From positions 248,001 to 312,000 of the forward strand of contig JASCOH010000002.1 in the NCBI GenBank assembly GCA_029959295.1: 64,000 nucleotides of DNA, in the 5' to 3' direction. The stretch comes from Flavobacteriaceae bacterium PS02334 (GTDB lineage Bacteria > Bacteroidota > Bacteroidia > Flavobacteriales > Flavobacteriaceae). The notes beneath the pieces were generated by a model, which was given only the letters and a program-made list of their open reading frames with translations, made no database searches and was not told the origin of the DNA. Both the position numbers and the translations under genes were made by a program. Below are positions 5,667 through 58,743 of the stretch, in pieces (position 1 is the first letter of the stretch; the number at the start of each line of letters is the position of its first letter).

Positions 5667-5764
5667 AATTTTTAATATAATTGTTTTTTATAATTGTTAC
5701 AGATATCGGCTATTTGCGTCGTTTTCATTCTGGAAGATATTTTTTATTTGCCGAAAGACACTTT

Positions 5765-6265
5765 TTATTTATTAATTATTTTTTGAGTCTTTTCAAGAAT
5801 TACAATTCTCTGATCTAAATCAAGAATTTCATTATTTAGCATTTGATCTTTTTCAACTTTAAAAGTATAAAACCAAGTTTTGCCTTTATCAAAAGAAATC
5901 AATGCTAGACCTGCATTAAATATTACTTTTCTTTTTTCATCTTCAATTTCTAAAGCGAATGGAATTGAACATTGTAATTGCTCATTATACGCTACTATTT
6001 CTGAGTTTTTTCCAAATATGATATTTGTAATTTTTGCACCGTTTGTTTCAGCATTTTTGTTTAATTCGGTTAACAAGTAAACTAAATCTTGTTTGGTTTT
6101 CAAATACTCAATCAATTTTGGAGTAGCATTATCTGCGAGTTCAGAGAAATTCTTTTTTAAGAACAATTCTCTAAATCTTAATGTAGATTCTTCGATTTTT
6201 TGTGAATAATCTTGTGCATTCATTTGTAATGAAAAAATAAACATCAACAAAATAATATGTTTCAT
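5765..6265 (-). CDS. Small exported protein, function unknown
   Basis: A 166-residue protein with a clear signal peptide (MKHIILLMFIFSLQMNAQ, cleavage after NAQ as is common in Bacteroidota). The mature part is a helical region followed by a beta-rich part ending KGKTWFYTFKV, which recalls small NTF2-like or DUF4878-like secreted domains. It follows the 6267-6938 lipoprotein gene by one base, so the two are likely co-transcribed and may work together at the cell envelope. The specific role is unknown. Confidence 0.55.
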   Translation of the reverse strand: MKHIILLMFIFSLQMNAQDYSQKIEESTLRFRELFLKKNFSELADNATPKLIEYLKTKQDLVYLLTELNKNAETNGAKITNIIFGKNSEIVAYNEQLQCSIPFALEIEDEKRKVIFNAGLALISFDKGKTWFYTFKVEKDQMLNNEILDLDQRIVILEKTQKIINK

Positions 6266-6266
6266 T

Positions 6267-6938
6267 TCAAATAGTTTTTAAATGTCTTAAATTAATCTTT
6301 CCACACTGAATTTCTTTACCATTAATTCTATAAAAAAGATTTTGCCCTTTTAGGCTAAGTACTGTTCGCAATGTACCATGTGCTCCTTCAGTCAAGCAGA
6401 GTATTACGACATAGAAGCCACTCGACTCTTTTGGATTGATGGTTCTTTTCAACGAAGATGATTTATGAATGGCATTATCTAAAAAAGATTCTAAATCCTT
6501 CAGGCCATAATTAAACAAGCCTGCCTTATCAAGTGTCATTGTGTCTGAAGGAACCAATACCTTAAAGTATTTGCCAGGTAAAGACGGAACTTCATAAGAA
6601 TCTACAGGAAACCCAATCTCAAGTTCTGCAACATTGTCTGTTTCATTGATTATTCGAGTCCAAAATACAGCATAATTATATACCTCGCTATTAGCATCAG
6701 TATATTTCATTCCGCCTCTTGGGAAACTGTTTTGGATTATTAGGCTCGCACCCTTAGGATCAGTATACTCAAATTTGGTGTAAATGTCTTTATCATTATT
6801 CAATGGTTTTTGACTCTTGACATTTTTTATCGAATCTAAATTTTTTATATCAACAGTATCTGGCGTTGATTTACTGTCTTGCCTACAGGAAAGAAACCCT
6901 GTTGTTGCTAAAATTAATAGTAGTATACTTTTTCTCAT
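6267..6938 (-). CDS. Lipoprotein, function unknown
   Basis: A 223-residue protein with a lipoprotein signal (MRKSILLLILATTGFLSC, lipobox Cys18). The mature part begins with a polar linker rich in Ser and Asp, then a beta-rich domain. No known family is evident. Its stop is one base before the start of the 166-residue exported protein, which suggests a two-gene unit. A region upstream (6981-7035) carries a fragment of the cassette-boundary repeats seen across this region. Confidence 0.6.
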   Translation of the reverse strand: MRKSILLLILATTGFLSCRQDSKSTPDTVDIKNLDSIKNVKSQKPLNNDKDIYTKFEYTDPKGASLIIQNSFPRGGMKYTDANSEVYNYAVFWTRIINETDNVAELEIGFPVDSYEVPSLPGKYFKVLVPSDTMTLDKAGLFNYGLKDLESFLDNAIHKSSSLKRTINPKESSGFYVVILCLTEGAHGTLRTVLSLKGQNLFYRINGKEIQCGKINLRHLKTI

Positions 6939-6980
6939 TTTTTAGCTTGCGCAAAATATTAAGTCGATTCATGAATTTGC

Positions 6981-7035
6981 CGATGAAAGCGAGCTGAGTT
7001 TTCTTTGCCAAGATAAAAATTTCTTCGTGAAAAAG
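6981..7035. repeat. Fragment of a cassette-boundary repeat (type II)
   Basis: The block containing GCGAGCTGAGTTTTCTTTGCC and then ATTTCTTCGTGAAAA matches the middle of the repeats near 10640 and 56590. The terminal AAC and GTTR signals are not clear here, so it looks decayed. Confidence 0.45.
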
Positions 7036-7168
7036 CATAATTAACTTACAAAAATCTCGGAAAGTTTTTGAAAATGAATTTAATAGCCTTTGCATTTTAA
7101 TGTGGTTTATCTCGATAATATCCAGAAATATGTTCTCCACTAGGCAAAACAATATCTTAACTATTCAT

Positions 7169-8290
7169 TTATTTGATTATAAATTCAATGAATGTTGTTC
7201 CGTTGAATTTGCAAATACCATTGCCGTCTGTTCCAAACCATAGTTCTCCGTTTTTGTCTTTATAAATTGTATTTACTGCGTTGCTGGTAAGTCCGTCTTT
7301 GGTTGTGTAATTAGTCAAGTTACTTCCGTCATATTTCCAAACTCCTGCGTCAACAGTTCCAACCCAGATGTTTCCGCTATTGTCTTCGTTAATTGAATAT
7401 ACGCGAGCCAAAGTTCCTAATCCTGGTTTTCCAGAGGCTCTAAAGTCAGCATTATTAAGTCCTTTTTCTTCTGTGAAATTTGTCAAAGTCTTTCCGTCAT
7501 ATTGGAATAATCCGGCACCATTATTTCCAAACCAAAGGTTGCCCTTGCTGTCTTCAAATAAGCCAAGAACGGCCGGGCCGGACAGTCCTTTTTCTTTAAA
7601 CCAAGTTAGTTTTTTACCATCATATCTGCATACTCCTTCTGCTTGTGTACCAAACCAAACATTTCCTTTCTTGTCTTTGAGGATACAATAAACGCCATAA
7701 CGACTAAGAGAAAAAGGGGCGTTCATTTGTGCGTTTGAACTTGATGGGTCAAATGGTAAATAGTCAAGTGAAAGATTGCTGTATCTCAACATGCCACCGC
7801 CAGCCAAAAACCATAAATCGTTATTTTTTGATTTCCAATCGGTTTCTGTACCATTAGTTATTTTGACTTTATTGGCAAGTGTTGTGATTTTTTTGCCATC
7901 AAATTTACTAATGCCGAATGTACCTGACCCGAACCAAATATTCCCCAAATCATCTTCTTGAATGTTTATTACTTGATTGTCTGCAAGTCCGTCTTTCACG
8001 GTAAATTGTGTCAATGTTTTTGTATCGTAACGATAAACACCTGCTCCATTTGTCCCAATCCAATAAGTACCACTTTTGTCTTGAAAAATACTACGTATGT
8101 TCTTGTCAATGGTTTTTAAAGTTGTTGAACTGTACTGGTTAACCTGCTGTGATGTTTGACCCGTTGCAGAAAGTATCTCCGCTTTATTATTTAAATTGTC
8201 TGATTTAATTTGTTCGTTGAAAGAAGACAAAAAGACAAAAAGGAAAGCAGAAATCGTGAACTGTATAATAATTATTTTCAAGTTACTCAT
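7169..8290 (-). CDS. Stand-alone Reg_prop beta-propeller protein, exported or anchored
   Basis: A 373-residue protein. It starts with an N-terminal hydrophobic segment (residues ~5-23) and then carries about seven repeats of the two-component-regulator propeller type (pattern D-x-x-G-x-x-W-x-G-T-x-x-x-G-[VI]-x-[RK]-[FY]-D-G-K). In large hybrid sensors these blades form the periplasmic ligand-binding domain, for example in polysaccharide sensing. Here the kinase and DNA-binding parts are absent and the frame ends cleanly after the last blade. It may therefore be a free-standing binding protein or a sensor fragment moved as a cassette. Confidence 0.8.
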   Translation of the reverse strand: MSNLKIIIIQFTISAFLFVFLSSFNEQIKSDNLNNKAEILSATGQTSQQVNQYSSTTLKTIDKNIRSIFQDKSGTYWIGTNGAGVYRYDTKTLTQFTVKDGLADNQVINIQEDDLGNIWFGSGTFGISKFDGKKITTLANKVKITNGTETDWKSKNNDLWFLAGGGMLRYSNLSLDYLPFDPSSSNAQMNAPFSLSRYGVYCILKDKKGNVWFGTQAEGVCRYDGKKLTWFKEKGLSGPAVLGLFEDSKGNLWFGNNGAGLFQYDGKTLTNFTEEKGLNNADFRASGKPGLGTLARVYSINEDNSGNIWVGTVDAGVWKYDGSNLTNYTTKDGLTSNAVNTIYKDKNGELWFGTDGNGICKFNGTTFIEFIIK

Positions 8291-8317: not shown

Positions 8318-8458
8318 TCACGAGTTGCCGCTAAAGTTTCGGGCTTCGCGTTCGCGCGGAAAATCGAAGCGCAGAAGTTGATATTATTAAGACAAATTGA
8401 AAAATTAAACTTAAGCACACTTTCGCCAAGCCCTTGTTGCCCAAGCGCTTAGTCAGGC
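8318..8458. repeat. Cassette-boundary repeat (type III, attC-like)
   Basis: It lies between two orphan genes and contains GCTTCGCGTTCGCGCGGAAA and GATATTATTAAGAC, corresponding to blocks of the repeats at 15352 and 52636. Read on the minus strand it starts near CTAAGCGCTTGGGC and folds back on itself near TTTAGCGGCAA. The termini are weaker than in the best copies. Confidence 0.5.
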
Positions 8459-8478: not shown

Positions 8479-8844
8479 TTATTTTGCGTCCAAAAACAAA
8501 TACAATGATTTAATCAAATCGTTTTCTGTAATGGCTACGTCCATTCCTGTCGCAACTGGCATGCCTCCTTTGGGACCAAGGCTCCACGAAATAATCTGTG
8601 TAGAATGGTTCACTTGCGAAGGCTTGTTCAATTCAAATTGAAATTCAATTGGCCATTCTGTCTGCAATTTTGATATTAGTTCGTTAATTGCTTCATATCC
8701 TACAATCGCTTCGCCCATATTACTTTCAAAAAATTGAATGTCAGCCGAATACGTTTTGGCCATTACTTCCAAACGCCTTTCTGCATTTCGGTCGTTCCAA
8801 ATCACAAGTAAACTGTCTTCTAATAATTTCGCTGTTGTCGCCAT
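8479..8844 (-). CDS. SnoaL/NTF2-like small protein
   Basis: A 121-residue protein with the alpha-plus-beta pattern of the NTF2/SnoaL cone: an N-terminal helix (LEDSLLVIWNDRNAERRLEVM), then YSADIQFFES, a short helix (GYEAINELISKL) and C-terminal strands ending ENDLIKSLYLFLDAK. Such proteins bind or isomerise small hydrophobic ligands, or serve as carriers. No catalytic residue can be fixed. It is a cassette-like single gene between boundary repeats. Confidence 0.75.
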   Translation of the reverse strand: MATTAKLLEDSLLVIWNDRNAERRLEVMAKTYSADIQFFESNMGEAIVGYEAINELISKLQTEWPIEFQFELNKPSQVNHSTQIISWSLGPKGGMPVATGMDVAITENDLIKSLYLFLDAK

Positions 8845-10559: not shown

Positions 10560-10748
10560 TTGCCACGAGATGTTGATTAGTTATTTCTGTCGCTTGAAAG
10601 TGACGCACAAGGTTTCGCCTGTAACTGTCAGTCGCGGATCAAAGCGAACTGAGCTCTCTCTGCTAATATATAATTTCTTCGTGAAAATGAAACTTCAATC
10701 TACCGAAAACTCCGCAATTGCGAAAAACCGCTGTGTTAGCCAGTAGTG
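10560..10748. repeat. Cassette-boundary repeat (type II, attC-like)
   Basis: It ends with GTTAGC at 10735-10740, close to the stop of the 10764-11339 gene. It contains AAAGCGAACTGAGCTC and ATTTCTTCGTGAAAATG, shared with 6981-7035 and 56580-56640. Inner arms around GCAATTGCG can pair imperfectly. Confidence 0.55.
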
Positions 10749-10763: not shown

Positions 10764-11339
10764 CTATTTATTTTCTGCTTTCAAAGTTTCAAAGTAAGCT
10801 TTAAACGCTTCTAAATTTTTATACGTTGAATTGGTGACTGTTATATACGGTTTGCCCTTGTTAAAATAATATTTTACGACATCCTGACCCATATTCAGAG
10901 AGACATCTGAATTCCCTGACGGTTCTTTAAAATTGATAGTTGTTTCCCAAAACACGATGAAAAAGTCCAATAATCTTTCTTTGTCACCAGTTATCTTCAC
11001 AGATCTTATGGTGTAAACGTCATTCACTTTTACAACATCATACGAAATGATTAATTTCTGTGCTTTAGATTGAACTATCCTATCGGTATAGGTTATGGTC
11101 AATTTTCCACCATCAAATACCATTTTAGACGAATCCGTATTTTCAATAGTCATGAGCATTTTAGACATAAGAAAATCACTTACATTCGAACTTATGAAAT
11201 TCAAATCAAAATAAGTCATTTGGCTCGTAAATCCAGCGTCCTTTTCCCCGACATACTTTGCAGGATAATAGGGAGAAACTTCTTGTGACTGTGCGATGAA
11301 TGAAGTTAGAATAGCAATAGAAAGAATAATTTTGTGCAT
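10764..11339 (-). CDS. Small exported protein, function unknown
   Basis: A 191-residue protein with a signal peptide (MHKIILSIAILTSFIAQSQ). The mature part is rich in beta strands (KLTITYTDRIVQSKAQKLII, NDVYTIRSVKITG) and ends with a helix. A membrane-bound or periplasmic beta-fold is likely. No family could be named. It is flanked by boundary repeats on both sides, so it has the look of a one-gene cassette. Confidence 0.55.
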   Translation of the reverse strand: MHKIILSIAILTSFIAQSQEVSPYYPAKYVGEKDAGFTSQMTYFDLNFISSNVSDFLMSKMLMTIENTDSSKMVFDGGKLTITYTDRIVQSKAQKLIISYDVVKVNDVYTIRSVKITGDKERLLDFFIVFWETTINFKEPSGNSDVSLNMGQDVVKYYFNKGKPYITVTNSTYKNLEAFKAYFETLKAENK

Positions 11340-11394: not shown

Positions 11395-11532
11395 TTTTGT
11401 TCAATTAGCGTTCCGCCACTTCACACTTTCGAACTTCACAACCGATTATTTTCTGATAAAGATAAAAATTCTTACGAAACGCAAACGTGAATTGACCACA
11501 AAATTCGAAATCTCGCCAAACCGCTATTACCA
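11395..11532. repeat. Cassette-boundary repeat (type I, attC-like)
   Basis: It is nearly the same as the copy at 53818-53955: CGTTCCGCCACTTCA at the left, AACCGATTATTTTC and TTACGAAACGCAAACGTGAA inside, and CGCCAAACCGC at the right. The stop codon of the DUF1801 gene (11527-11529) lies inside its right end, as is common for cassette genes. The outer GTT/AAC are degenerate here. Confidence 0.6.
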
Positions 11533-11922
11533 GCTGGGCTTTTTTGTCCGCAAGTTTTTGTTGTATTTTTCTATCAGTTGTCGGAAAGTTTCTTTGATGT
11601 CATCAATAGGAATGTCGTCCAACAGATTTATTTGCAAAGTTATTACATTGTCTTTTATTCGTTGTTCTGTAGTAGGGAAACTCTTTTTGTCTTGAATAAA
11701 ACCTAGAAGAATTTTCTTTTTGCGAACCCATAAAAATCCAAGATTATATTCGTAATAAGAAAAAAATGGAATTTGGTATTTTCGTTTGTGAATAATGTTT
11801 TCGTCAACCGACAAAACAATAGATTTCACAGCAATCAAACACTCTCTAGTTGCTGTTTCCTGCTTATCATAATAATGTTCTAATGCGTTTACTGTCCTTG
11901 CTTCACTTATTGCTTTGTCCAC
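11527..11922 (-). CDS. DUF1801-domain protein (YdhG-like)
   Basis: A 131-residue protein that fits the DUF1801/YdhG-like fold, related in shape to frataxin: helix (ATRECLIAVKSIVLSVD), then strands (IIHKRKYQIPFFSYYEYNLGFLWVRKKKILLGF in two pieces), then a C-terminal helix (KETFRQLIEKYNKNL). Family members are small, single-domain and of unknown biochemical role. Its start overlaps the end of the tag gene by 16 bases, so it is translated from the same message. It may be a helper or a passenger of the repair gene. Confidence 0.75.
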   Translation of the reverse strand: MDKAISEARTVNALEHYYDKQETATRECLIAVKSIVLSVDENIIHKRKYQIPFFSYYEYNLGFLWVRKKKILLGFIQDKKSFPTTEQRIKDNVITLQINLLDDIPIDDIKETFRQLIEKYNKNLRTKKPSW

Positions 11923-12458
11923 ATTGGTTTTTGTTTCAAAATTAGTTCATAAATAGGGCAATTATCATCGTGAGAACCCCTTAAGTAAACAATACTCATT
12001 AAAAACTCGTTAACAATTTCGCCACCTGTAAAGCGGAATGTTTTCTTGAATAATTTAACCCATTCTTCTTTGGTTTTCGGATGATGATGTTCTAACCATT
12101 TTTCAAATGAACCGAACTCTTTTTGCAAAAGAAGAATTGTTTTTGCATTTTCTATTGTTGCATTTACTTTCAGTTTGTTGCGTATAATTCCTGCATCAGC
12201 CAAAAGCCTTTCTCTGTCATCTTCTGTGTATGCTGCAACTTCTTTGATGATGAAACTGCTATAAGCATTTCTAAATGATTGTTCTTTTTTCAAAATCGTT
12301 TCCCAACTCAATCCTGCCTGATTGATTTCTAAAATCAATCTGCCAAATAATTCGTTGTCATCGTGGATTGGGAAACCATATCTGTTATCGTGATAGTTTT
12401 TGTGCAATGCCTTTTTTTCTTCGGATTGCATATTTATTATAGCTGTGCAATAACTCAT
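11907..12458 (-). CDS. tag: DNA-3-methyladenine glycosylase I
   Basis: Excises 3-methyladenine from alkylated DNA. I chose the ATG at 12458 because it places the zinc ligand at Cys4 (MSYC), as in E. coli Tag. The other expected ligands are present: His in the YHDN motif and the His and Cys of GSHDDNC near the end. The conserved EINQAGLSWETILKK and RNKLKVNA segments are also present. The product is 183 residues, within the family range. It forms an operon with the overlapping DUF1801 gene and perhaps with the NTF2-like gene upstream. Confidence 0.93.
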   Translation of the reverse strand: MSYCTAIINMQSEEKKALHKNYHDNRYGFPIHDDNELFGRLILEINQAGLSWETILKKEQSFRNAYSSFIIKEVAAYTEDDRERLLADAGIIRNKLKVNATIENAKTILLLQKEFGSFEKWLEHHHPKTKEEWVKLFKKTFRFTGGEIVNEFLMSIVYLRGSHDDNCPIYELILKQKPMWTKQ

Positions 12459-12513
12459 AAAATCGGTTTTCGTTTTAAAGAGGGTGAATGAAAACATACG
12501 CCCTCTTTTATTG

Positions 12514-12885
12514 TTATCCAGTAACTTTTAGGTAATCGATGAGATTATTCTTCAGAGTGAAATGAAACTGCAAAACTGCCGGGCTTCCGGGAAAGGTGCC
12601 AGACACCTCCGCAGATAAGACACTTGAAGTACCATCTTCGATATATTTAAGAGGTTTCATCACAGATTGGTATTTTTCGTTTGTTTCTTCTAACACACCT
12701 TGAATGGCTACTCTTCCAGTATACGGCTTGCCTTCTTCAAGCATTATCCCGTTTTCAGAAAAGCAATTTGCAGATGCTTCGCTGTCAAAATTGTTTTGCG
12801 CGTTTATAAAATCTGTTACTACTGTCGGCAAATTACTCACTATGTGAATATTTTCTTTATTGTGTTCGTGAATCTTCGATTTCAT
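12514..12885 (-). CDS. SnoaL/NTF2-like protein
   Basis: A 123-residue protein from the ATG at 12885. An earlier in-frame ATG at 12930 would overlap the SDR gene. The fold signature is typical: helix (TVVTDFINAQNNFDSEASANC), F-x-x-NGIMLEEG-x-x-YTGR-x-AI-x-G, and C-terminal strands ending LKNNLIDYLKVTG. In this family such proteins are ligand-binding or ketosteroid-isomerase-like. It follows the SDR gene by 19 bases, so it likely belongs to the HxlR-controlled unit and may act on the same small molecule. Confidence 0.8.
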   Translation of the reverse strand: MKSKIHEHNKENIHIVSNLPTVVTDFINAQNNFDSEASANCFSENGIMLEEGKPYTGRVAIQGVLEETNEKYQSVMKPLKYIEDGTSSVLSAEVSGTFPGSPAVLQFHFTLKNNLIDYLKVTG

Positions 12886-12904
12886 TGTTTTATTTTTAAG
12901 ATTA

Positions 12905-13687
12905 TTAAATTGTTGGTACTGTACCGCCATCGATTACATATTCAGTTCCTGATAAATAACTGGCTCTCGGAGAAACAAGAAAACCAACCAATTCAGCTAC
13001 TTCTGCCGGCTCAGCTGGTCTACCGTATGGTATTCCACCCAATGCATCCATTACACCTTGCTGTGCTTCTTCTACAGTGCTATTGGCGTTTCTTGCAATC
13101 TCAGCCAGCCAGGCTTTCGATGCTCCTGTATTGATCCATCCAGGAGAAACAGTTAGCACTCGAACGCCTTTAGGCGAAACTTCATTCGATAAACTTTTAC
13201 TATAGTTTCTCAATCCTGCTTTTGAAGCTGCATAAGGCAATGTAGAATCGTATAATGGTAGTTTGCCTTGGATAGAAGCTATGTGAATAATGACACCGCT
13301 TTTTCGCTCTAACATTTGCGGTAAAAATCCCCTGTCAAGTCGAACCGGAGCAAGCAAATTAGCCTGAAGGGTTGATTCCCAATCTTCATCAGACAATGCA
13401 CTAAAGCCACCGGCAGGTGTAGTTGAAGAACCAAGATTGTTCACCAAAATGTTAAGCCTTCCATAAGCCGACAGCACTTCGCTGATTACTTTTTGTGTTC
13501 CTTCTGATTTACTCAAGTCAGACGCAATGAAATGCAGCTTGCTATTTTCTTTTTCTGGTGCGTTTCTCGCAGTGATAATAACGGTTGCTCCAGCTTGTAG
13601 CAACCTTTCCGCAATTGCTTTTCCAGCTCCTTTTGTACCTCCCGTTACTAAGGCAATTTTGCCTGATAATTCGTTTTGATAGTCCAT
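12905..13687 (-). CDS. Classical SDR oxidoreductase
   Basis: A 260-residue NAD(P)-dependent short-chain dehydrogenase. It has the cofactor motif TGGTKGAGKAIAERL, the NNLG motif, the catalytic Ser in IASIQG and the YAASK active site, and it closes with SPRASYLSGTEYVIDGG, the normal family C-terminus. It is transcribed divergently from an HxlR regulator 135 bases away. That arrangement usually means the regulator senses a reactive compound and represses the oxidoreductase. Natural substrate unknown. Confidence 0.92.
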   Translation of the reverse strand: MDYQNELSGKIALVTGGTKGAGKAIAERLLQAGATVIITARNAPEKENSKLHFIASDLSKSEGTQKVISEVLSAYGRLNILVNNLGSSTTPAGGFSALSDEDWESTLQANLLAPVRLDRGFLPQMLERKSGVIIHIASIQGKLPLYDSTLPYAASKAGLRNYSKSLSNEVSPKGVRVLTVSPGWINTGASKAWLAEIARNANSTVEEAQQGVMDALGGIPYGRPAEPAEVAELVGFLVSPRASYLSGTEYVIDGGTVPTI

Positions 13688-13787
13688 CGTATATTCGTTT
13701 TAAAATTGTTAGGTACAAATTTCTGAAGTATGTAAGTTTCTCACAAGTACGGAATTACGATTCACATAGGGATAAATTTTTCCCCTA

Positions 13788-13818
13788 TTGCAAGAATTGG
13801 TAGATAGGCTTACTTTTG
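13788..13818 (+). promoter_or_regulatory. Bacteroidota-type promoter of the HxlR gene
   Basis: TTG at 13788-13790 and TACTTTTG at 13811-13818 match the TTG / TAnnTTTG consensus with a 20-base spacer. The start codon is only four bases past the second box, so the message would be nearly leaderless. Confidence 0.5.
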
Positions 13819-13822
13819 TAGT

Positions 13823-14182: not shown

Positions 14183-14204
14183 AATCTTTGTCAGAAAAAG
14201 CATT

Positions 14205-14520
14205 GAAGATAATCAGAGCTACTGCAATAATTAGTAATAATAAAATTTCCATCTTATTAAATTTATCTTTTTACTACCCGTCATTGCGAGGCACGAAGCA
14301 ATCATCACATAATCAAAATCCGCAACGCTAGCGCTAGCGTCTCGCTCGTGCCAAATCAAAAATCACATTCGCAAAGTCATTGCGAGGCACGAAGCAATCA
14401 CATAATCAAATTCTATAAAGTTTTCAGGTTTTAGCTAGTTTGCTAAATTAAACCCTATTCTCCAGATTTGCCACCCGAGCGATAGCGAATAGGCGAAGCA
14501 AATTATCACAAATACAAAAC
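14205..14520. repeat. 315-bp segment duplicated at 54885-55205, with REP elements
   Basis: This stretch matches 54885-55205 almost base for base. It contains two copies of a REP-like unit (GTCATTGCGAGGCACGAAGC at about 14280 and 14380) and a palindrome ACGCTAGCGCTAGCGT. A short minus-strand start (MEILLLLII) occurs at the same place in both copies. It fills most of the gene-free stretch 14183-14578. Confidence 0.8.
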
Positions 14521-15283: not shown

Positions 15284-15351
15284 TTTCGTTTTTAATAAAT
15301 GTTCTTTCTTGTCGAGTATTTTCTGTAAAATAGCATACAACATTTTAAGGC

Positions 15352-16451: not shown

Positions 16452-16452
16452 C

Positions 16453-51532: not shown

Positions 51533-51536
51533 TGTT

Positions 51537-51588
51537 GAATTTTGCACTTCGGCCCGCCTGACGCAAAACCCGTGTTGGCGGTAGTTTT
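51537..51588. repeat. Right half of the cassette-boundary repeat split by the prophage
   Basis: GAATTTTGCACTTCGGCCCG through CGTGTTGGCGGTAG matches 52702-52762 with few changes and continues the half left at 15352-15423. GTTG at 51574 lies about 12 bases from the stop of the 51589-52578 gene. Confidence 0.8.
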
Positions 51589-52578
51589 TTATCTTCTGTC
51601 TTTAGGTGCAATATCTGGTACGTTTTCATTACTATATACACTTGTATTTAGTGTTATTTCATTTGTTGATTCCAAAATTTGAAATGAATGATTAAAGAAA
51701 AATTCAAAATATTTTATTGTATTTTTTAGTTTGTTTAATTTTTCAATTTCTATATAATTCACTGGTGGAATATGCTCTTCCTGCTTGTATTTGATTCCAT
51801 TCTTAGACTTTGGTTCTATTTCACTTGCAACATAATCTGTATGGAAATGAATTTTTTCTCCGTTGTCGTTGTCATAAGTGCCAGTTAAATTACGACTTAC
51901 TTTTTTAGCATCTACAAAAGTAATTATGTAATGTATATCATCAATGAAATCAATTTTATAGTTTGATACATCTTTTTTTAAAATTACTTCAATAATATTT
52001 TTATCAGAATAACCTTGTGATTTTGTATAATTTAAATCAAAATACCAAGTTGTGTTTTGAAGTGGATAAATTGGTTTTAATCGGAAAATATACTTTTTAT
52101 TAAATGACGATTTTTCATAAATCAATGATGATTTAATCAAATAATAAGATTGATTTATTGTAGATGAATCTTTTAAGATTTCTATTTTCGCAACTGACGT
52201 TTTATATTTCTGTTCGTATAAGTTGGGGCTAATTTTGGTAAAATTCATTTTTTTGTCTTGAAGCCTCGTTCTAAATTTTTCCAAATTTTTCCCAAGAGTA
52301 AAATAACTTATAGTTAAATGATGAAAATTATTTCTTTTCTCTGACGATAATTTTATTTTTTCTTTTGTGTCAAAGTTTTCAGCGAGAGAGTCAGTTACCA
52401 ATTCAAATCCCTTTTTTGAAAGATATAGTTTGTTCAGTTTTGCCAATTGATTATCCTTAAGATTTTCGTCTGTTATTATTTCAGAAAGATTTGTAACATA
52501 AAATTCTTGTGAAAAAGATTTTTGAGATATAGTTACAAGTAAAAGAAGAAAAAGTTTTATGAATATTGATTTTGTCAT
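51589..52578 (-). CDS. Exported protein, function unknown
   Basis: A 329-residue product from the ATG at 52578, chosen because it opens a signal peptide (MTKSIFIKLFLLLLVTISQK, cut near FSQ). The longer frame lies in a boundary repeat. The mature protein is long and mostly beta, with many Lys and Asn residues. No domain was recognised. It is the first gene to the right of the prophage and ends close to the split boundary repeat. Confidence 0.55.
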   Translation of the reverse strand: MTKSIFIKLFLLLLVTISQKSFSQEFYVTNLSEIITDENLKDNQLAKLNKLYLSKKGFELVTDSLAENFDTKEKIKLSSEKRNNFHHLTISYFTLGKNLEKFRTRLQDKKMNFTKISPNLYEQKYKTSVAKIEILKDSSTINQSYYLIKSSLIYEKSSFNKKYIFRLKPIYPLQNTTWYFDLNYTKSQGYSDKNIIEVILKKDVSNYKIDFIDDIHYIITFVDAKKVSRNLTGTYDNDNGEKIHFHTDYVASEIEPKSKNGIKYKQEEHIPPVNYIEIEKLNKLKNTIKYFEFFFNHSFQILESTNEITLNTSVYSNENVPDIAPKDRR

Positions 52579-52611
52579 TAAGCATATTTTATTGTTAGGT
52601 TTGTCATTCGT

Positions 52612-52768
52612 GGTTAGTTCGGCAAAATTACCACGTTTCGGGGCTTTGCGTTCAAGCGGGAAATCAAAGCACAAAAGCTGATATTATTACTAAAGTTTAA
52701 TTGAAAAACTGCTGTTGAATTTTGCACTTCAGCCCGCCTGACGCAAACCACTGTTAGTGGCAGTTGCA
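52612..52768. repeat. Cassette-boundary repeat (type III, intact)
   Basis: The intact relative of the repeat that the prophage split. It runs from about GGTTAGTTCGGC to CACTGTTAGTGGCAG, with CAAGCGGGAAATC and CAGCCCGCCTGACGC as imperfectly pairing arms. GTTAG at 52753-52757 is about 50 bases from the next gene's stop. Confidence 0.7.
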
Positions 52769-52806
52769 ATTTATTTTTCTTAATAATTTTTCTTCCGCTA
52801 GTCAAT

Positions 52807-53091
52807 TTAAATATTACTATTCTTCCTCTTAATAAAAGTACCTAAAATAAAAAATGTCAACAAAAACATTATGGTTTGAATAATAAATACAGGATATAGA
52901 AAGTCAGCTTCTGCATAACGATAACCAAAACTAATTATAGAAACAGGAAAAGTAATTACTAGCCCAAATAAAGACCATTCTCCGTAAAACGGGTCATCGG
53001 GATAAACCGAACACACTGATAAAGTTCCAAATCCAACATATAGTAATGCGATGTAGAATGCCAGTTTACGGTTTCGAATATAAGTCATCAT
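52807..53091 (-). CDS. Small membrane protein, function unknown
   Basis: A 94-residue protein with three membrane helices (LAFYIALLYVGFGTLSVC, WSLFGLVITFPVSIISFG, YPVFIIQTIMFLLTFFILGT) and a basic C-terminus (IKRKNSNI). It is a one-gene cassette between two boundary repeats. No family was recognised. Confidence 0.55.
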   Translation of the reverse strand: MMTYIRNRKLAFYIALLYVGFGTLSVCSVYPDDPFYGEWSLFGLVITFPVSIISFGYRYAEADFLYPVFIIQTIMFLLTFFILGTFIKRKNSNI

Positions 53092-53099
53092 ATTTTAGG

Positions 53100-53262
53100 T
53101 ATCATTGTTTTGCCAATTACCGCTAAGGTTCCCGCGCTACAAGCAGTTTGCGACTAAATTAAGCCCATTATTCGGATTTGCCAAATCATCCCAAATACAA
53201 AACCAACTTTCCATTAAGCCAATTGACCAAATCCGTTGTAGTGGCTGTTGTGTGCTGGTTTT
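53100..53262. repeat. Cassette-boundary repeat (type IV, attC-like)
   Basis: It includes TGCCAATTACCGCTAAGG, GCGACTAAATTAAGCC, GGATTTGCCAAATC and AATCCGTTGTAGTGGC, and ends CTGTTGTGTGCTGG (GTTG at 53247) next to the stop of the 53264-53764 gene. It is related to the copy at 14425. Confidence 0.6.
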
Positions 53263-53263
53263 T

Positions 53264-53764
53264 TTACTTCCACAACTTCTCAGCATCTTTTTTTGTTAAT
53301 GCATTTATTAGATTTTTTGAGAATTCAACTCTTACGAGTGGAAATTGAATTTGATTTTCACCCGTCAAAATCAATTGTCTATTTAAAATCCGACTAATTT
53401 CATTCATAAAACTCAAAACCTTTTTATAATCCTCGACAGAGTTTATTTCTTTAGGTTCAATATCGAATTCAATTTCATCAACTGTAAAAAAATGAGTATT
53501 TATAATTATGTCGTCAATAATTATTGCCACAGTTTTTAATTCCAATTTTCCTGTAACGTCCGTCAATAATTGAATTAAATAATCTTTATCAATCTTATTT
53601 ATAATTTGATTATCATCTGACGGTCCATATTTTACAATATGATTTGCATTTAAATAATCTATTAGAATTTTCCAATCTTCAATATCTACGTTTTCTACAT
53701 AAATATCTCTTAGTGTCCCATCAGGTTCAAAAATCCATTTTATTTCTTCCCAATTATTAGTCAT
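53264..53764 (-). CDS. Cytosolic protein, function unknown
   Basis: A 166-residue product from the ATG at 53764 (MTNNWEEIKWIFEPDGTLRD); the frame upstream of it lies at the edge of a boundary repeat. It has a strand-helix start and a second half with QLILTGENQIQFPLVRVEFS. The N-terminal arrangement resembles small immunity or SMI1/KNR4-like proteins but the match is weak. It is a one-gene cassette. Confidence 0.5.
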   Translation of the reverse strand: MTNNWEEIKWIFEPDGTLRDIYVENVDIEDWKILIDYLNANHIVKYGPSDDNQIINKIDKDYLIQLLTDVTGKLELKTVAIIIDDIIINTHFFTVDEIEFDIEPKEINSVEDYKKVLSFMNEISRILNRQLILTGENQIQFPLVRVEFSKNLINALTKKDAEKLWK

Positions 53765-53817
53765 TCTTGATTTAGATTTTTTGAGTTCTTTTAACCGTAA
53801 ATTTTCTGGTAAACTAG

Positions 53818-53955
53818 CACATAACATTCCGCCACTTCACGCAGTTGCGAACTTCACAACCGATTATTTTCCACTAAAGATAAAATTTCTTGCGAAACGC
53901 AAACATGAACTTACCACAAAATTCGCAATTGCCAGAAACGGCTGTTAGCCGACGT
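53818..53955. repeat. Cassette-boundary repeat (type I, attC-like, best copy)
   Basis: AAC at 53823-53825 and GTTAGCC at 53944-53950 mark the ends. Inside are ATTCCGCCACTTCAC at one side and TTGCCAGAAACGGCT at the other, and inner arms CGCAGTTGCGAA and TTCGCAATTGCC that pair at 10 of 12 positions. About 125 bases between AAC and GTT, like Vibrio repeats. Near-copy at 11395. Confidence 0.65.
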
Positions 53956-53959
53956 TTTT

Positions 53960-54354
53960 TTATTTTCTTTTGAATATCCATTTTATTTTTGAGTCTGCTT
54001 TCGGATAACTTTCTGTACAAGAGTTTCCTTCACAAAACCCAATTGACCATCCTGAAGGAAGCTTATAAAAATATCCCCAACCTCTTTCTTTAATTAATCC
54101 TTGCTTTATTTCTATCGGTAACTCTGAAAACTTTCTGCCAACACTAATTCCTTCTTTAGTTACAAACTTACTTTCGGTGTTTGCAAATAAACGGTGTCTG
54201 TATTTTTCAAAACCAAATCAAAATTTGCGGCATTTATTTTAATTGCTTTGGATTTTGATAACTGACTACTTGAGGTTAAAATCGACTTTTCGGCTTTAGC
54301 ATTTTGTCCAAAGACATTTATACTTAAAAATAGTAAGATTATATTCAGTTTCAT
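53960..54354 (-). pseudogene. Frameshifted exported-protein gene
   Basis: The ATG at 54354 opens a signal peptide (MKLNIILLFLSINVFGQ) and the frame runs to a stop at 54160. At the TDTVYLQTPK segment another frame, one base off, takes over (FANTESKFVTKEGISVGRKF). It continues in good coding style through GWGYFYKLPSGWSIGFCEGN to a stop at 53960-53962. The two pieces together would make a ~130-residue secreted protein. A single indel near 54170-54190 probably split it. Sequencing error cannot be excluded. Confidence 0.6.
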
Positions 54355-54383: not shown

Positions 54384-54500
54384 AAAACGTTGGCAAATGT
54401 CCCGCTACTATAATGAGTTTGGGACTAAATTAAACTCTATTTCCAGATTTGCCACCCGAGCGATAGCGAACAACCGAAGCAAACCCAAATATATTCAAAA
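54384..54500. repeat. Cassette-boundary repeat (type IV, partial)
   Basis: AACGTTGGCAAATGTCCCGC at the left, then GGGACTAAATTAAACTC and GATTTGCCACCCGAGCGATA, shared with 14425 and 55090. The right end is less clear because REP sequence and the HNH remnant follow. Confidence 0.5.
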
Positions 54501-54618
54501 TACAATCAACTAAATAGCGAATTTAAAATCCCAATAGAAATAAAATCAAGTAGCCCGAATAACCCGCGTCATTGCGAGGCACGAAGCAATCACATAATCA
54601 AATTCTATAAACTGTTCA

Positions 54619-54866
54619 TTATTTATTATGTATGGAGTTATGACAAGGTTCGCAAATGGATACAAGCCATTCAATAGGTTCTTTTCCAATATTTCTCTTG
54701 GCATATTTTTTATGATGAACTTGTGTAGCACGTTTGCCACAATATACACACACTGCCAATTATCTCTTCTAAGAACTACATAGCGTTTACGCTGCAACGC
54801 GTCAGGTTTAAGATAATCGTTTCTGTAATAGTCACGACGCTTTTTCCGATTCGCTTCGAAAATCAA
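54619..54866 (-). pseudogene. HNH endonuclease gene broken by a GT-repeat slip
   Basis: The first frame (start TTG at 54866; ANRKKRRDYYRNDYLKPDAL, RRDNWQC) ends its HNH homology at a TGTGTG run. Skipping two bases restores CVYCGKRATQVHHKKYAKRN and SICEPCHNSIHNK, the full Cys-x-x-Cys, HH and C-x-x-C-H pattern of an HNH nuclease, ending at the TAA at 54619-54621. A two-base expansion of the GT run explains the shift. Without the shift, translation continues in a wrong frame into REP sequence to 54546. Confidence 0.75.
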
Positions 54867-54884
54867 ATTTTTGAATATAATCGT

Positions 54885-55205
54885 GCTACTACTATAATTA
54901 GTAAGAGTAAAATTTCCATCTTATTAAACTTATCTTTTTACTACCCGTCATTGCGAGACACGAAGCAATCACATAATCAAAATCCGCAACGCTAGCGCGA
55001 GCGTCTCGCTCGTGCCAAATCAAAAATCACATTCGCAAAGTCATTGCGAGGCACGAAGCAATCACATAATCAAATTTCTATAAAGTATTCAGGATTAAGC
55101 TAGTTTGCTACTAAATTAAACCCTATTCTCCAGATTTGCCACCCGAGCGATAGCGAACAGGCGAAGCAAATCATCCCAAATACAAAACCATATTTAAATT
55201 AAGCC
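54885..55205. repeat. Second copy of the 315-bp REP-bearing segment
   Basis: Near-identical to 14205-14520, with the same two REP units (about 54944 and 55036) and the same CGCTAGCG palindrome, slightly changed. A further REP copy lies alone at about 54568, inside the HNH remnant's tail. In all, five REP copies are visible in the window. Confidence 0.8.
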
Positions 55206-55242
55206 TAAAACCCCAATCTCGCCAAACAGTTGTTATGTGCCG
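55090..55242. repeat. Cassette-boundary repeat (type IV, attC-like)
   Basis: It starts at GCTAGTTTGCTACTAAATT within the duplicated segment and ends CGCCAAACAGTTGTTATGTGC (GTTA at 55232-55235), a few bases from the stop of the HEPN gene. Confidence 0.6.
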
Positions 55243-55247: not shown

Positions 55248-55694
55248 TTATAAACTTGTTACTCTGGTTATCAAAGCTTGCATTTCTGAAATCAATTGAT
55301 TCACTTCACTATCATTTTTCGGGTAACTATCAGCATTGTGTAGATGTGTATTTCTAATATCAGCAATTTCCCTTTGATATTTTGCTTTTTCTGATGGTGA
55401 TAATTTCCCTAGAGTTGGAAGGGTATGGATGGAAAATTGAGTTATATATTGTCCAATAGAGTATTTTCCATTTCTTACTAGATGATGGTCAAGAATTGCT
55501 TTTAATGTGCTGTCTAATGCTCTTGTTGAATGAAGTATTTTTAAAATATGTTTTCTTTTTGGTGGAGTTATTGCGTCAACGAGAAGAACCTGTCTGAATT
55601 CGGTTTTAAGTTTATTAGTATTAGCATTATTTAAGCAAGGATTACTATTAATAATCGCTATTATTGTATTTATTCTATCTTGCTGTGTCGGCAT
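55248..55694 (-). CDS. HEPN-like protein of a two-gene cassette
   Basis: A 148-residue helical protein. Near the C-terminus it has EIADIRNTHLHNADSYPKND. RNTHLH fits the R-x4-H motif of HEPN ribonucleases, which act in toxin-antitoxin and antiviral systems. The rest is a helical bundle without extra domains. It follows the 275-residue gene with a two-base gap, so the pair is one operon and one cassette. The nuclease activity is an inference from the motif. Confidence 0.6.
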   Translation of the reverse strand: MPTQQDRINTIIAIINSNPCLNNANTNKLKTEFRQVLLVDAITPPKRKHILKILHSTRALDSTLKAILDHHLVRNGKYSIGQYITQFSIHTLPTLGKLSPSEKAKYQREIADIRNTHLHNADSYPKNDSEVNQLISEMQALITRVTSL

Positions 55695-55696
55695 AG

Positions 55697-56524
55697 CTAT
55701 TTTTTATATTTAGATATACGATTTTCAATTTGTTGGAAATTGTTTGAATTCACTAAATACCAACCAAAAAGGCTTGCAATTCGAGTAGGCTTCAAAGGGT
55801 CAAACTTTATTTTTGGAATATCGTTCAAATTCAGAACCTTTCTAGTAATGTCTTTATGATATGGGACACCGTTATCTACTGAAAATTCAGAGTTAATAGC
55901 AAATTCATAAAATGGTTGAAGTTCAACTAAATCGGAAACACTATTTGATAATCGTTTTAAACCAAAAAATTGATTTTCATATTCATAAATATTTGCTCTT
56001 GAGGAAACATATTTTTGATTAATTCTGTCAAAATACTTAGCCTTATTTTTTAAATTTGGAATGTCTCTTATTATTTCCTTTTTAAAGTCTGTTCGTTTTA
56101 TGTAATCAAGATTATCCCTTTGAACTTGAGACTGAATTGTAAATATTTTTTTCTGAATGTTCTTTATATCATTTATTTTTTTTTCGTCTTTTTTGTCCCT
56201 AATAATTGATTTTGCTTTTCTTATATCTTTTACTTCTATAAAGTCACTGAAATAATATTTACCAAATTGGCTAACTGCATTTGGCATATCATTCTTATGG
56301 TCATATAATAAAAGCATTTTTGTGTACGGGGGATATGCGATTAGAGCATTAGTTAAACGAGTAAATAGCTTATTCGGATTTTTCTGCTCATTGTCTCTAA
56401 TTGTAAAAATTGCTAAAAGTCCTTTTTGATCGGATAATAAAGTGTCCGGTCCATCATAAGCGAACGGATGATCTGGATTGTCCACTTTTATTATTCCTTT
56501 AGGTATGTTATTTAATTCTGTCAT
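55697..56524 (-). CDS. Partner of the HEPN-like gene, possible nuclease-fold protein
   Basis: A 275-residue protein. The N-terminal 100 residues (HPFAYDGPDTLLSDQKGLLA, IFTIRDNEQKN, KMLLLYDHKND) look like an alpha/beta fold that could be a decayed PD-(D/E)XK nuclease or a related sensor. Then comes a charged helical section and a C-terminal region ending NNFQQIENRISKYKK. It is the first gene of the pair with the HEPN-like gene. A toxin-antitoxin or defence role is a hypothesis. No known family was recognised. Confidence 0.5.
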   Translation of the reverse strand: MTELNNIPKGIIKVDNPDHPFAYDGPDTLLSDQKGLLAIFTIRDNEQKNPNKLFTRLTNALIAYPPYTKMLLLYDHKNDMPNAVSQFGKYYFSDFIEVKDIRKAKSIIRDKKDEKKINDIKNIQKKIFTIQSQVQRDNLDYIKRTDFKKEIIRDIPNLKNKAKYFDRINQKYVSSRANIYEYENQFFGLKRLSNSVSDLVELQPFYEFAINSEFSVDNGVPYHKDITRKVLNLNDIPKIKFDPLKPTRIASLFGWYLVNSNNFQQIENRISKYKK

Positions 56525-56549: not shown

Positions 56550-56690
56550 CACATAACGTTATGGTACTAGCCATCGTTCCGGAAAAGTGAACTGAGTTGT
56601 GTCTGCCGAAGATAAACTTTATTCATGAAACAACAATTTCTAGCAATCAAAAACCAGCAATGGAGGCTAGTGGCGCTTATAGGGAGTTAT
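56550..56690. repeat. Cassette-boundary repeat (type II, attC-like)
   Basis: AAC at 56555-56557, then ACTAGCCATCGTTCCGG, AAAGTGAACTGAGTTG, ACTTTATTCATGAAAC, and the right arm CCAGCAATGGAGGCTAGTGG. ACTAGCC and GGCTAGT pair near the ends. It follows the HEPN pair's upstream start and precedes the DUF2971 stop. Confidence 0.6.
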
Positions 56691-57715
56691 TATGTTTCTA
56701 ATGCCCAATCATTAATTTTAATTTTCATTTCTCCATTTTCAGTATGTGATGTTGCCCAAGCTATATCTAAATCTATTTCCTTCAAATTATAAAAGATGTA
56801 GATTCTCTTAGCTGTGTGAAAGATTTGATTATTGATAATATTTGCAATCCATTCAATTTCTTTCTCAGAAATAGCATATTCCAATTCAATTGTCATTCTT
56901 CCTTTGGAGTTCAACTTATAGAAAATATTTTCAGTAATTTTAAAATTTACTTTTTTTGCGCCAGTTACTGACGCTGGAATAGCTGATAGATATTTAACCT
57001 CAGGAATAAAAGGATTTTTAATCTTAACTGCTTTGAATTTATAAGTTTTATCTAAAAGTTCAATTTGGTAAAAATCAACTTCTCTATCGCATAGTTTTTT
57101 CATCATTTCCATCTTTTGAGATTCTTCCATTCTTAAACCAAAATAAATTGCTTTTAACGATTGATAGTCATAAGATTGTTTTCCCGAATTATCTGTTATA
57201 ATTCGAAACTCTTGTTCATATTCCCAACGCTTTGATTTGAAAGAACTCATTTTGGAAATTAAGCCGTCATTTTTAATCTGCATATCTGCAATTGTTATTT
57301 CTGGTGGTTTATTTTCATAAGAAACTGAAAAGGAATATGCTCGCTCAGTTTTGAAGCTTCTAAGAAGTAAATTCGAATTATATTCTAAACAAAATCCTTT
57401 GTGAGAATTTGCGTAGTGAGCCCATAATAATTTGTCTAAATAAGATTTTGACAATGAATATATTCCAATTCGTTTGTTGGCAGATAATAGATTTTCGAAA
57501 GCGCCGTGTAAATTTTTAAGTGCATCTTTTCTTTTGAAGCTTAGTAAAAATCCTAGTGATTTAGTTTGGGTCAAAAATTTGTCCGAAACTACAATGTTCT
57601 CGCACGGATCATTTAATGTCTCAAAATTTGAAGCCCAAAAATAATTATTCTCAACTCCGTCTAAATCGCGTTGAAAAACTTCTTCATTTCCTCCTCTATA
57701 TTTGTAAACTAACAT
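56690..57715 (-). CDS. DUF2971-domain protein
   Basis: A 341-residue soluble protein. It opens with YKYRGGNEEVFQRDLDGVEN, FWASNFETLNDPCE and LDKLLWAHYANSHKGFCLEYN, the conserved DUF2971 blocks, followed by YEQEFRIITD. DUF2971 genes are common in accessory and defence regions, but their biochemistry is not established. The last ~100 residues are a separate C-terminal domain. It is a one-gene cassette. Confidence 0.8.
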   Translation of the reverse strand: MLVYKYRGGNEEVFQRDLDGVENNYFWASNFETLNDPCENIVVSDKFLTQTKSLGFLLSFKRKDALKNLHGAFENLLSANKRIGIYSLSKSYLDKLLWAHYANSHKGFCLEYNSNLLLRSFKTERAYSFSVSYENKPPEITIADMQIKNDGLISKMSSFKSKRWEYEQEFRIITDNSGKQSYDYQSLKAIYFGLRMEESQKMEMMKKLCDREVDFYQIELLDKTYKFKAVKIKNPFIPEVKYLSAIPASVTGAKKVNFKITENIFYKLNSKGRMTIELEYAISEKEIEWIANIINNQIFHTAKRIYIFYNLKEIDLDIAWATSHTENGEMKIKINDWALET

Positions 57716-57744
57716 CGTTTATTATTTGATAAGTTTTTAGTAAT

Positions 57745-57885
57745 TGACTATAACGTTCTGCCAATTAGCCAAGTAGCAACTTTTGGAAAGTTTAATTCTA
57801 AATGTAAGCAAAATTTCAACTTAGTAATTTCCATATAAGTAAAAACTAAACTAGCTCTTTTGCCAAACTGCTGTTAGCTGTAGTA
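57745..57885. repeat. Cassette-boundary repeat (attC-like)
   Basis: AAC at 57752-57754 and GTTAGC at 57873-57878 mark the ends. TAACGTTCTGCCAATTAGC and GAGCTC-free GCCAAACTGCTGTTAGC can pair imperfectly. GTTA lies 15 bases from the stop of the 57890 gene. Confidence 0.6.
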
Positions 57886-57889
57886 ATTA

Positions 57890-58114
57890 TTACGAAACAT
57901 TAATTTTGAAATCAAATTTCTCATTATCTTCATCAATTTTTCCTAAGCTTTCGAACATGAAATCATTTTCGAGAATGTTTGAATATGGGAAATTCATTCC
58001 AATCAACGCTTGACCTTTATAGTCTGTAGCAAATAAATTGTTTTCTTCATCAACGAAATTTAATGTTGCTGTTTTTGTTTTGTGATTTGCTATTACGATT
58101 GCTTTCTTTGACAT
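57890..58114 (-). CDS. Small acidic protein, function unknown
   Basis: A 74-residue acidic protein: KKAIVIANHKTKTATLNFVD, FATDYKGQALIGMNFPYSNI and KIDEDNEKFDFKINVS. Two short strands alternate with loops. It follows the 81-residue gene by 8 bases and the two seem to be one two-gene cassette. An antitoxin-like or inhibitor role is possible but cannot be shown. Confidence 0.5.
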   Translation of the reverse strand: MSKKAIVIANHKTKTATLNFVDEENNLFATDYKGQALIGMNFPYSNILENDFMFESLGKIDEDNEKFDFKINVS

Positions 58115-58122
58115 AAATTATT

Positions 58123-58368
58123 TTATAGAGTTATATTTTTTTGAATAGAGTATTCTTTTATAGCTTCACAAGTTTCGTAATCTTCTTTTTCAATTGCTAT
58201 TTTGTTGATTCTTTTTAAAACATCTAAAGTTGGTTGATTTTCCATATTTTTTAAAAATTCAACAATCTTATTTTTGTTATTTATATTTCGGATTATTACA
58301 GAAATCCCTTCGGCCAATTTATCTTGTATGCCGTTGTATAGTTTCTCAAATTCTTCTTGATAATTCAT
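58123..58368 (-). CDS. Small helical protein, function unknown
   Basis: An 81-residue helical, charged protein (EFEKLYNGIQDKLAEGISVI, LKRINKIAIEKEDYETCEAI). It is first in the minus-strand pair with the 74-residue gene. The second half resembles helical hairpins found in UvrB/UvrC-type motifs (KEDYETCEAIKEY). This is also the last gene of the cassette-like array. Confidence 0.5.
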   Translation of the reverse strand: MNYQEEFEKLYNGIQDKLAEGISVIIRNINNKNKIVEFLKNMENQPTLDVLKRINKIAIEKEDYETCEAIKEYSIQKNITL

Positions 58369-58743
58369 TTTTATTCAAAAGTTTTAAATTATTACTGCAA
58401 ACTCATATATATATCCGCTACCTTATAGCCAATATTATACCCGCTAAAACAAAGCATATTTTTTTTCTAAAAACAGTAAAAATTAGATTACAAATCATCA
58501 AATGAACTTCTAACTGCCAAATACTTTGAGTACTTACTTAAATATAAATTTCAGTGGTTTTTCTGCTGAATACTTAGTCATAGTAAGCGTACACGCTGAG
58601 CACAGTAAAGAAACTAATAAATATTCCCACCCTTACACGTAATTATACCTATTAATCAAACAACAAACACGCATTTAATCGTATATATCTGTATTTCAAC
58701 GATTATTTTCCAAAAATTAAAAAATAAATTAAAAATTCAACCC

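Follow-up and report, generated by a model that had tools for sequence, protein, structure and literature searches.

Organization of the locus

The stretch of DNA analysed here (the window; 64,000 nucleotides (nt), G000:C22:248001-312000) is part of the 4.59 Mb genome of Flavobacteriaceae bacterium PS02334, assembled in 69 contigs, and holds an array of short genes and inverted repeats that we interpret below as the probable remains of a chromosomal integron. The genes lie on the minus strand in two blocks, running from ~58400 to 51530 and from ~15425 to 8300, and most of them are followed, 3′ of the stop codon, by an imperfect inverted repeat of 100-160 nt that on the coding strand opens with (C/T)AACA and closes in GAACGTTR, intact or worn. 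Among 20 proteins encoded in or beside the two blocks, 13 had no Pfam match; the other seven comprised four DUF matches (DUF1801 below the cut-off), a regulator propeller, a 3-methyladenine glycosylase and a D12 methylase. One-strand orphan genes with imperfect inverted repeats in their gaps had already been described by an earlier inspection of the letters and open reading frames (ORFs) of this DNA (the sequence-only reading), a description that the ORFs, repeats and Pfam search bear out. The span that it gave to the array, 5700-58370, does contain the two cassette blocks, but also takes in a prophage, a block at 11907-14182 that does not resemble single-gene cassettes and, below ~8300, genes without clear sites.

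Read in the direction of transcription (all features are on the minus strand), the array opens with the broken 3′-terminal scrap of an integrase gene (58488-58567), in which an in-frame stop and a frame change are followed by the gene end TTTGATGATTTGTAA (58502-58488), and with an attI-like site (58400-58487), whose core ATATGAGTT ends at 58400 and whose geometry is that seen in relatives. The first cassette carries two orphan genes (58123-58368 and 57890-58114; ORFs and Pfam), followed by the best-preserved attC-like site of the window (57751-57876, 7 of 9 L-stem pairs). Next come a DUF2971 gene (56690-57715), a worn attC-like site (56554-56689, 6 of 9 L-stem pairs), two orphan genes that form one cassette (55248-56524), and an attC-like site enlarged by inserted repeat DNA (54395-55235), which starts with CATAACAACTGTTTGGCG, aligns in its 3′ part with the relative G516 and has a 3′ end set by reading. 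The family A site at 53822-53947 (the 53829 site) and the family E site at 53124-53250 (the 53116 site), both with 7 of 9 L-stem pairs, enclose the gene at 53264-53827, whose cassette is found elsewhere in two relatives. An orphan gene (52807-53091), a family F site (52632-52756, the 52622 site; 3′ end set by reading) and another orphan gene (51589-52674, ORF start uncertain) precede a site that is split by the prophage into a 5′ half (51533-51577) and a 3′ half (15338-15423).

Beyond the prophage, the second block continues with an orphan gene (14579-15343), a family E site broken by an inserted repeat, as the comparison of repeats showed (14203-14570, the 14430 site), a DUF1801-like gene (11527-11922, below the Pfam cut-off), a family A site (11406-11529, the 11399 site) that is a near-copy of the 53829 site, an orphan gene (10764-11339), a worn site with ends set by reading (10608-10738) and, 3′ of the gene at 8479-8844, a weaker family F copy with approximate ends (8320-8450). 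The stretch 11907-14182 breaks the cassette pattern and is unlike the single-gene cassettes: it encodes the 3-methyladenine glycosylase and, by reading, a SnoaL-like protein, an SDR-like oxidoreductase and a divergent HxlR-like regulator. A repeat of 339 nt (unit GATTATGTGATTGCTTCGTGCCTCGCAATGACG), with 92%-identical copies at 14203-14537 and 54871-55205, is inserted into two of the attC-like sites.

The attC-like sites

Three site families can be told apart in the window: A (53829 and 11399), E (53116 and 14430) and F (52622, the split copy and the weaker one at ~8320). The sequence-only reading had paired the repeats at 11395 and 53818 as near-copies, and this holds, with 83% identity between 53829-53945 and 11413-11529. 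It had likewise set the repeats at 15352 and 51537 beside that at 52636; the likeness to the 52622 site stands, but the first two are the halves of a single site, which aligns with the 52622 site when rejoined across the prophage. An alignment of ten window sites by MAFFT mixed the families and was set aside, and Rfam gave no useful match at gathering or permissive thresholds.

The sites recur outside this genome. The 53829 site has matches in 12 of 40 genomes (this one and 11 others, all from a single genus), and at 1e-10 a family E site is matched in 134 of 299 genomes of the genus, the present genome among them; the repeats are therefore not chance. On plasmids, the window stretch 52600-53960 was matched over roughly the length of one site by 11 records from Myroides, Empedobacter, Riemerella, Chryseobacterium and Haliscomenobacter, the annotated gene at the match being lnu(H) in two Empedobacter records and one for a RidA protein in the Chryseobacterium record. 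In the Empedobacter brevis plasmids NZ_CP043636.1 and NZ_CP043637.1, the annotated lnu(H) gene adjoins a site resembling 53829, so such sites also mark resistance genes on plasmids.

Covariation of the L stem went beyond every permutation in both families. In family A, 7.52 of 9 positions were paired against a permuted maximum of 7.15 (27 of 38 sites, the other 11 being excluded for unusable arms), and in family E 7.54 of 9 against 7.42 (48 of 57 sites, nine excluded likewise), each over 1000 permutations. A site finder was modelled on families A and E of Flavobacterium arrays, and sites with at least 8 of 9 L-stem pairs were counted as strict. The window has no strict site, and the finder reported one at 7 of 9 (57751-57876): the attC-like sites of the window are worn.

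Classical attC sites have the R-box consensus RYYYAAC and GTTRRRY. Of 102 strict sites found in relatives, 3 fit the former and 7 the latter; the core AAC and GTT, a requirement of the finder, are retained. A classical attC, folded as the bottom strand, has extrahelical bases and an unpaired central spacer. When folded, the 102 sites have unequal spacers of 2-4 and 6-8 nt (the range searched) and, in top-strand folds, single bulges on both arms, 49 and 58.

Integrase genes and attI-like sites beside the arrays of relatives

Searching relatives' arrays by tblastn with the tyrosine recombinases of this genome and of its order revealed a recombinase upstream of the array and on its strand in the genomes G040, G499 and G496, and a recombinase scrap at a contig end ahead of the array in G021. 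The array-linked enzyme is a tyrosine recombinase of ~350 amino acids (aa), with the array directly downstream on the same strand. When one genome per species was scanned, at least 574 relatives came up, the best 80 of which were taken as loci with flanks of up to 10 kb; they come from Flavobacterium, Frigoriflavimonas, Kaistella, Pedobacter, Hufsiella, Algoriphagus, Cyclobacterium and many Bacteroidota metagenome-assembled genomes (MAGs).

Run on these 80 loci, the site finder placed 102 strict sites downstream on the strand of the integrase and none on the opposite strand, compared with 2 and 2 upstream and with 2 in Markov-shuffled downstream DNA. A strict downstream site was present in 36 of the 47 loci with at least 1.5 kb of downstream sequence; as an upstream control, a strict site on that strand occurred in 2 of the 75 loci with at least 1.5 kb upstream. 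The R′ motif alone was found 184 times on the same and 38 times on the opposite strand in 343 kb downstream, and 135 and 115 times by strand in 680 kb upstream. These side and strand controls are independent of how the site finder was shaped. In 35 of the 80 loci the contig runs out within 2 kb on the downstream side, against 6 on the upstream side, an excess that would be expected if arrays break assemblies.

In genomes with a single contig, the arrays can be followed at length. On the integrase strand, G437, G552, G357 and G496 have 34, 31, 34 and 14 strict sites, against 1, 0, 0 and 0 on the opposite strand, at a median site spacing of ~0.8-0.9 kb; ORF bases are 6 to 18 times more numerous on the array strand. 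G499 carries a second platform, with 2 strict sites, and a plasmid of Chryseobacterium sp. SNU WT5 has five 3′ of its integrase gene. Relatives thus contain arrays of cassettes that point in one direction and each end in a palindromic attC-like site.

The integrase stop is followed at about 100 nt by a conserved stretch that has palindromic arms and the core TATANNAGTT; 3′ of this stretch, each locus has a different sequence. This attI-like core is present in 66 of the 80 loci, compared with 88 of 2443 upstream control windows of 270 nt; the search pattern was written after the sequences had been viewed, and its weight rests on position, on this control and on columns that were not selected. 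Between the related plasmid platforms of Chryseobacterium sp. SNU WT5 and C. oryzae, identity ends exactly at ACAAGTT. We take this stretch to be a putative attI site beside the integrase gene of the relatives, with a worn copy in the window. Two attI-like cores (L041 ~14570, and L048 ~8860 (G013)) head arrays and are preceded by 731 nt that are 92% identical; no integrase gene is found there, and a small helix-turn-helix-like protein is encoded instead.

An integrase remnant at the head of the window array

Both elements have left traces in the window. At the head of the array, tblastn aligned SSKTTEIYTHVSTKSIQQIK with SRKTTEIYI*VSTQSIWQLE (E ~0.001), and blastn with the gene ends and attI-like sites of the 80 loci matched 58567-58383 (E 5e-18). 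In a wider blastn scan, the same interval was the sole place in the window to be matched (E 5e-16; 40 matches at 1e-6), and five shuffles gave no match to the relatives' gene ends and attI-like sites. Because remnant and attI-like site lie together at 58567-58400, a complete integron was very probably once present in the window, its integrase gene body having since been lost. The observation of the sequence-only reading that no integrase is present is accordingly right for an intact gene, but passes over this remnant.

Elsewhere in the genome, a search for an intact array-type integrase found none, its best match reaching 281.7 bits (contig C44), and the IntI model TIGR02249 gave 14 matches, none of which exceeded the cut-off. 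The sequence-only reading had proposed to look for an integrase with the IntI patch; the partner integrase of the relatives has no such patch.

Taken together, we interpret the array as what is left of a decayed chromosomal integron, of a class widespread in Bacteroidota, a reading to which we assign a probability of about 0.88. An array of integron type, either an integrase-less cluster (cluster of attC sites lacking integron-integrases, CALIN) or a different cassette-moving system, is what had been suggested from the sequence alone, and this was right in kind. By the present comparison the window is both: a remnant without a working integrase and, overall, part of a different cassette system, the latter because the partner integrase lacks the IntI patch and stays below the curated IntI cut-off. 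Of the usual definition of a CALIN (at least two attC sites and no integrase), the window has the lack of an intact integrase, yet it retains the remnant and the attI-like site, and its sites fail the strict rule.

A plain CALIN, in which a foreign classical IntI placed cassettes with their attC sites at a locus that never held an integron, is on this evidence very unlikely. It would fit a genome without an intact array-type integrase and the 68 of 299 genus genomes that have sites of one family and lack this integrase. It does not account for the integrase scrap and attI-like site at the array head, nor for sites that misfit the classical consensus, and a classical IntI over the cut-off occurs in none of 395 genomes of the order and, among the genomes listed for the phylum sample, in one of the same class.

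Several results count against the decayed-integron interpretation or leave it weaker than it might be. Of the 80 loci, 14 have no attI-like core as searched; a strict downstream site is missing from 11 of the 47 with 1.5 kb or more of downstream sequence, and the C. oryzae plasmid platform has no strict site either. Pairing of R″ with R′ (5.44 of 7) stays within the permutation range (permuted mean 5.19, maximum 5.49), and recombination is read from sequence junctions alone. In an all-versus-all test, 5 of 34 matches started and 11 ended within 12 nt of a core, which is weak, several of the 34 being integrase genes or other repeats; in the control with shifted ends, 200 trials averaged 1.8 and reached at most 8. 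Co-occurrence of integrase and site across the genus is moderate as well: among 299 genomes, 66 have both, 46 the integrase only, 68 the site only and 119 neither (112 with an array-type integrase and 134 with a family E site in total; Fisher p 1.9e-4, uncorrected for kinship). So moderate a value marks a single site family as a poor proxy, sites without the integrase being common.

Position is the stronger evidence. The genus comparison drew on 121 integrase matches of at least 398 bits and the 148 sites listed, two candidates being scored per genome, and left out lower-scoring integrase matches and this genome's own two sites. Among these 148 sites, 24 share a contig with an integrase no more than 60 kb away, and 23 of them are downstream on its strand; one is upstream (25.8 kb, same strand) and none is on the opposite strand.

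Cassettes in different contexts

Two cassettes recur in different surroundings. Together with its own site, the gene at 53264-53827 is found in G040 (92%) and G499 (89%). Homology sets in within about five bases of the GTT in the upstream site and ends at the CTTA/GTTA of the cassette's own site or at most nine bases beyond. The upstream site belongs to family A in the window and to family E in G040 and G499, and the downstream genes differ among all three. Just outside the cassette, identity in pairs with the window drops to 0.47-0.62, from 0.81-0.89 inside; random stretches gave a mean of 0.52 and a maximum of 0.78.

A second cassette, whose genes are by reading ArsR- and MerT-like, is shared at 94% identity by Flavobacterium denitrificans, where it sits at attI, and a Bacteroidia MAG, where an attC-like site precedes it; homology begins exactly at GTT and ends three bases past the next GTT. 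A comparison of cassette content with close strains had been named as a check by the sequence-only reading, and such a comparison came out positive: both cases are shared cassettes between different flanks. Crossover at the GTT of R′ and of attI is read from these junction comparisons.

Such junctions are hard to reconcile with dispersed palindromes, e.g. of the repetitive extragenic palindrome (REP) type or like miniature inverted-repeat transposable elements (MITEs), between which homologous recombination reshuffles genes. Near-copies of several repeats within one genome and the other repeats inserted in the window are what that explanation would predict. Its difficulty is that the first cassette sits behind unlike site families (A and E) and breaks at GTT, that the break in the 94% identical pair falls precisely at GTT, where attI in one and attC in the other are unlike in sequence, and that a strict one-strand order holds behind the integrase; we regard it as barely credible.

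IntI binds folded attC strands and double-stranded attI, and exchanges strands at the GTT core. Building on the observed anatomy, stem covariation and junctions, we infer by analogy that the array recombinase would excise and insert cassettes (attC x attI and attC x attC) at GTT, that it would use folded attC strands as IntI does, and that it would bind attI in double-stranded form, with new cassettes entering there; strand choice, folding in the cell and activity are the parts that this analogy would supply. Loss of the integrase would then have frozen the window array, unless a recombinase acts in trans.

The array integrases

The array integrases consist of the domains Phage_int_SAM_4 and Phage_integrase, have conserved catalytic motifs and carry a conserved extra N-terminal stretch of ~60 residues (20 rows). 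With the IntI model and IntI4 (2a3v), they align in two stretches. Between KDR and HxxRH, all 85 array integrases have 58-59 residues, all 17 classical IntI of the phylum have 100 (3 of 20 IntI loci were dropped for want of a readable frame) and this genome's XerD has 66; from the difference between 58-59 and 100, all 85 array integrases lack the IntI patch. The four full-length proteins tested fall under the TIGR02249 cut-off. In a tree of 30 of the 85 array integrases, 17 IntI, 2 Xer and 6 other proteins, the array integrases form one clade (99/95) apart from IntI (100/99), with long branches between the clades. Of the 395 genomes in the phylum sample, 105 have a classical IntI over the cut-off, and one of these (G707) is listed under the same class; none of the 395 genomes of the order has one.

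The best PDB match of an array integrase is the XerA/XerC-like 4a8e (9e-41), 5hxy being another Xer-like match, and the best NCBIfam model is NF040815, on which the two array integrases tested score 219.9 and 222.3 bits (cut-off 220) and which this genome's XerD also passes, with 227.9 bits. Unlike XerA/XerC-like recombinases, the array integrases are tied to attI-like sites and cassettes and carry the N-terminal stretch. The likeness could nevertheless mean that XerC/XerD or another recombinase moves the arrays, the neighbouring integrase being a marker of an old mobile element, and sites in a genome without an intact array-type integrase would agree with this. Against it stand the order of integrase, attI and array, conserved across many Bacteroidota genera, and the lack of strict sites in 12-13 kb around this genome's XerD and XerC genes (two loci only). 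We consider this explanation highly improbable.

The C44 recombinase, the best TIGR02249 match of this genome, lies beside a relaxase-like gene (by reading) and had been taken for the integrase of an integrative and conjugative element, an assignment that was dropped; the tree puts it beside the array clade, to which it is related, on a long branch. It is an open frame of 385 aa (G000:C44:253732-254757; L009 8607-9761). Upstream of this frame, at 2.5 and 9 kb, the opposite strand carries strict sites (L009 6191 and L046 8502), a placement that would equal the classical divergent geometry.

Comparison with known systems

With sedentary chromosomal integrons (TIGR02249; IntI4, 2a3v), the arrays described here share an integrase gene, an adjacent attI-like site, a one-strand array, hairpin attC-like sites, exchange at the GTT core as read from junctions, mostly orphan cassettes and 31-34 detected sites. 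They differ from classical integrons by the missing IntI patch, the ~60-residue N-terminal stretch, the R boxes and an integrase gene that lies upstream and points in the direction of the cassettes. Reverse-orientation integrons of Treponema reportedly have their integrase in the cassette direction too, as the array integrases do; unlike these, the Treponema integrons carry a classical IntI. To judge from the compared sequences, the class is best described as an integron variant, with integron-like anatomy but failing the IntI patch and R-box consensus of the classical family.

Possible, and held by us only tentatively, is the broader view that integrons exist in two deeply separate forms and that much of Bacteroidota has its own lineage, with a Xer-like recombinase, a new N-terminal domain, no IntI patch and a different hairpin geometry. 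If so, a parallel cassette economy would extend to plasmids and resistance genes and would escape tools that rely on the patch and the classical consensus.

Intact relatives with the unusual integrase are common in a group in which integrons were reported to be rare. In the parts of the literature drawn on here, the IntI patch served as the selection criterion for IntI in a 2008 survey (PMC2426708), Bacteroidetes had only cassette-less integrases before IntegronFinder 2.0, whose paper adds one complete Salinibacter integron (PMC9024848), and none of 11 taxon-specific attC models is named for Bacteroidetes (PMC8352920). Our search of the open-access literature, outside of which lie subscription papers and preprints, found no description of this integron class. 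If our interpretation is true, many Bacteroidota hold long integrons, chromosomal and in one case on a plasmid, that rules based on the IntI patch have missed, and an integrase that works without the patch would make recognition of folded attC a testable question.

A candidate biological setting is Riemerella anatipestifer, in which uptake of aph(3′)-IVb is independent of homology, with parallels cited for lnu(H) and blaRATA: the gene enters the chromosome with a short 5′ sequence of 27 nt and a 3′ sequence of 140 nt, an attC-like fold being noted, by a mechanism that according to the authors is yet to be elucidated (PMC13148043). The section of that account used here names neither an integrase nor attI, and the array integrase may be the recombinase behind this uptake. 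The Empedobacter plasmid lnu(H) genes, which adjoin a site like those of the window, add to the likeness.

Flanks, second array and prophage

The right flank of the array is found in 21 and the left flank in 4 of 39 other genomes. In five flank-sharing, integrase-positive genomes (G007, G009, G011, G019 and G022), the integrase is located elsewhere than the flank, so they give no direct before/after view of the window locus. A second array of the same genome (L047, G000:C22:45001-60000) contains several minus-strand sites of families E and A; an attI-like site and integrase-end scrap were not found in it by the comparison used for the window.

The prophage (15424-51532) lies inside one attC-like site, whose halves share ~4 nt (AACA) at the break. 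Its products include two proteins with an rve domain (below Pfam's cut-off) and an AAA domain, a terminase-like protein, DUF2586 and an S24-type repressor; by reading, the rve and AAA proteins resemble MuA and MuB, which suggests a Mu-like prophage.

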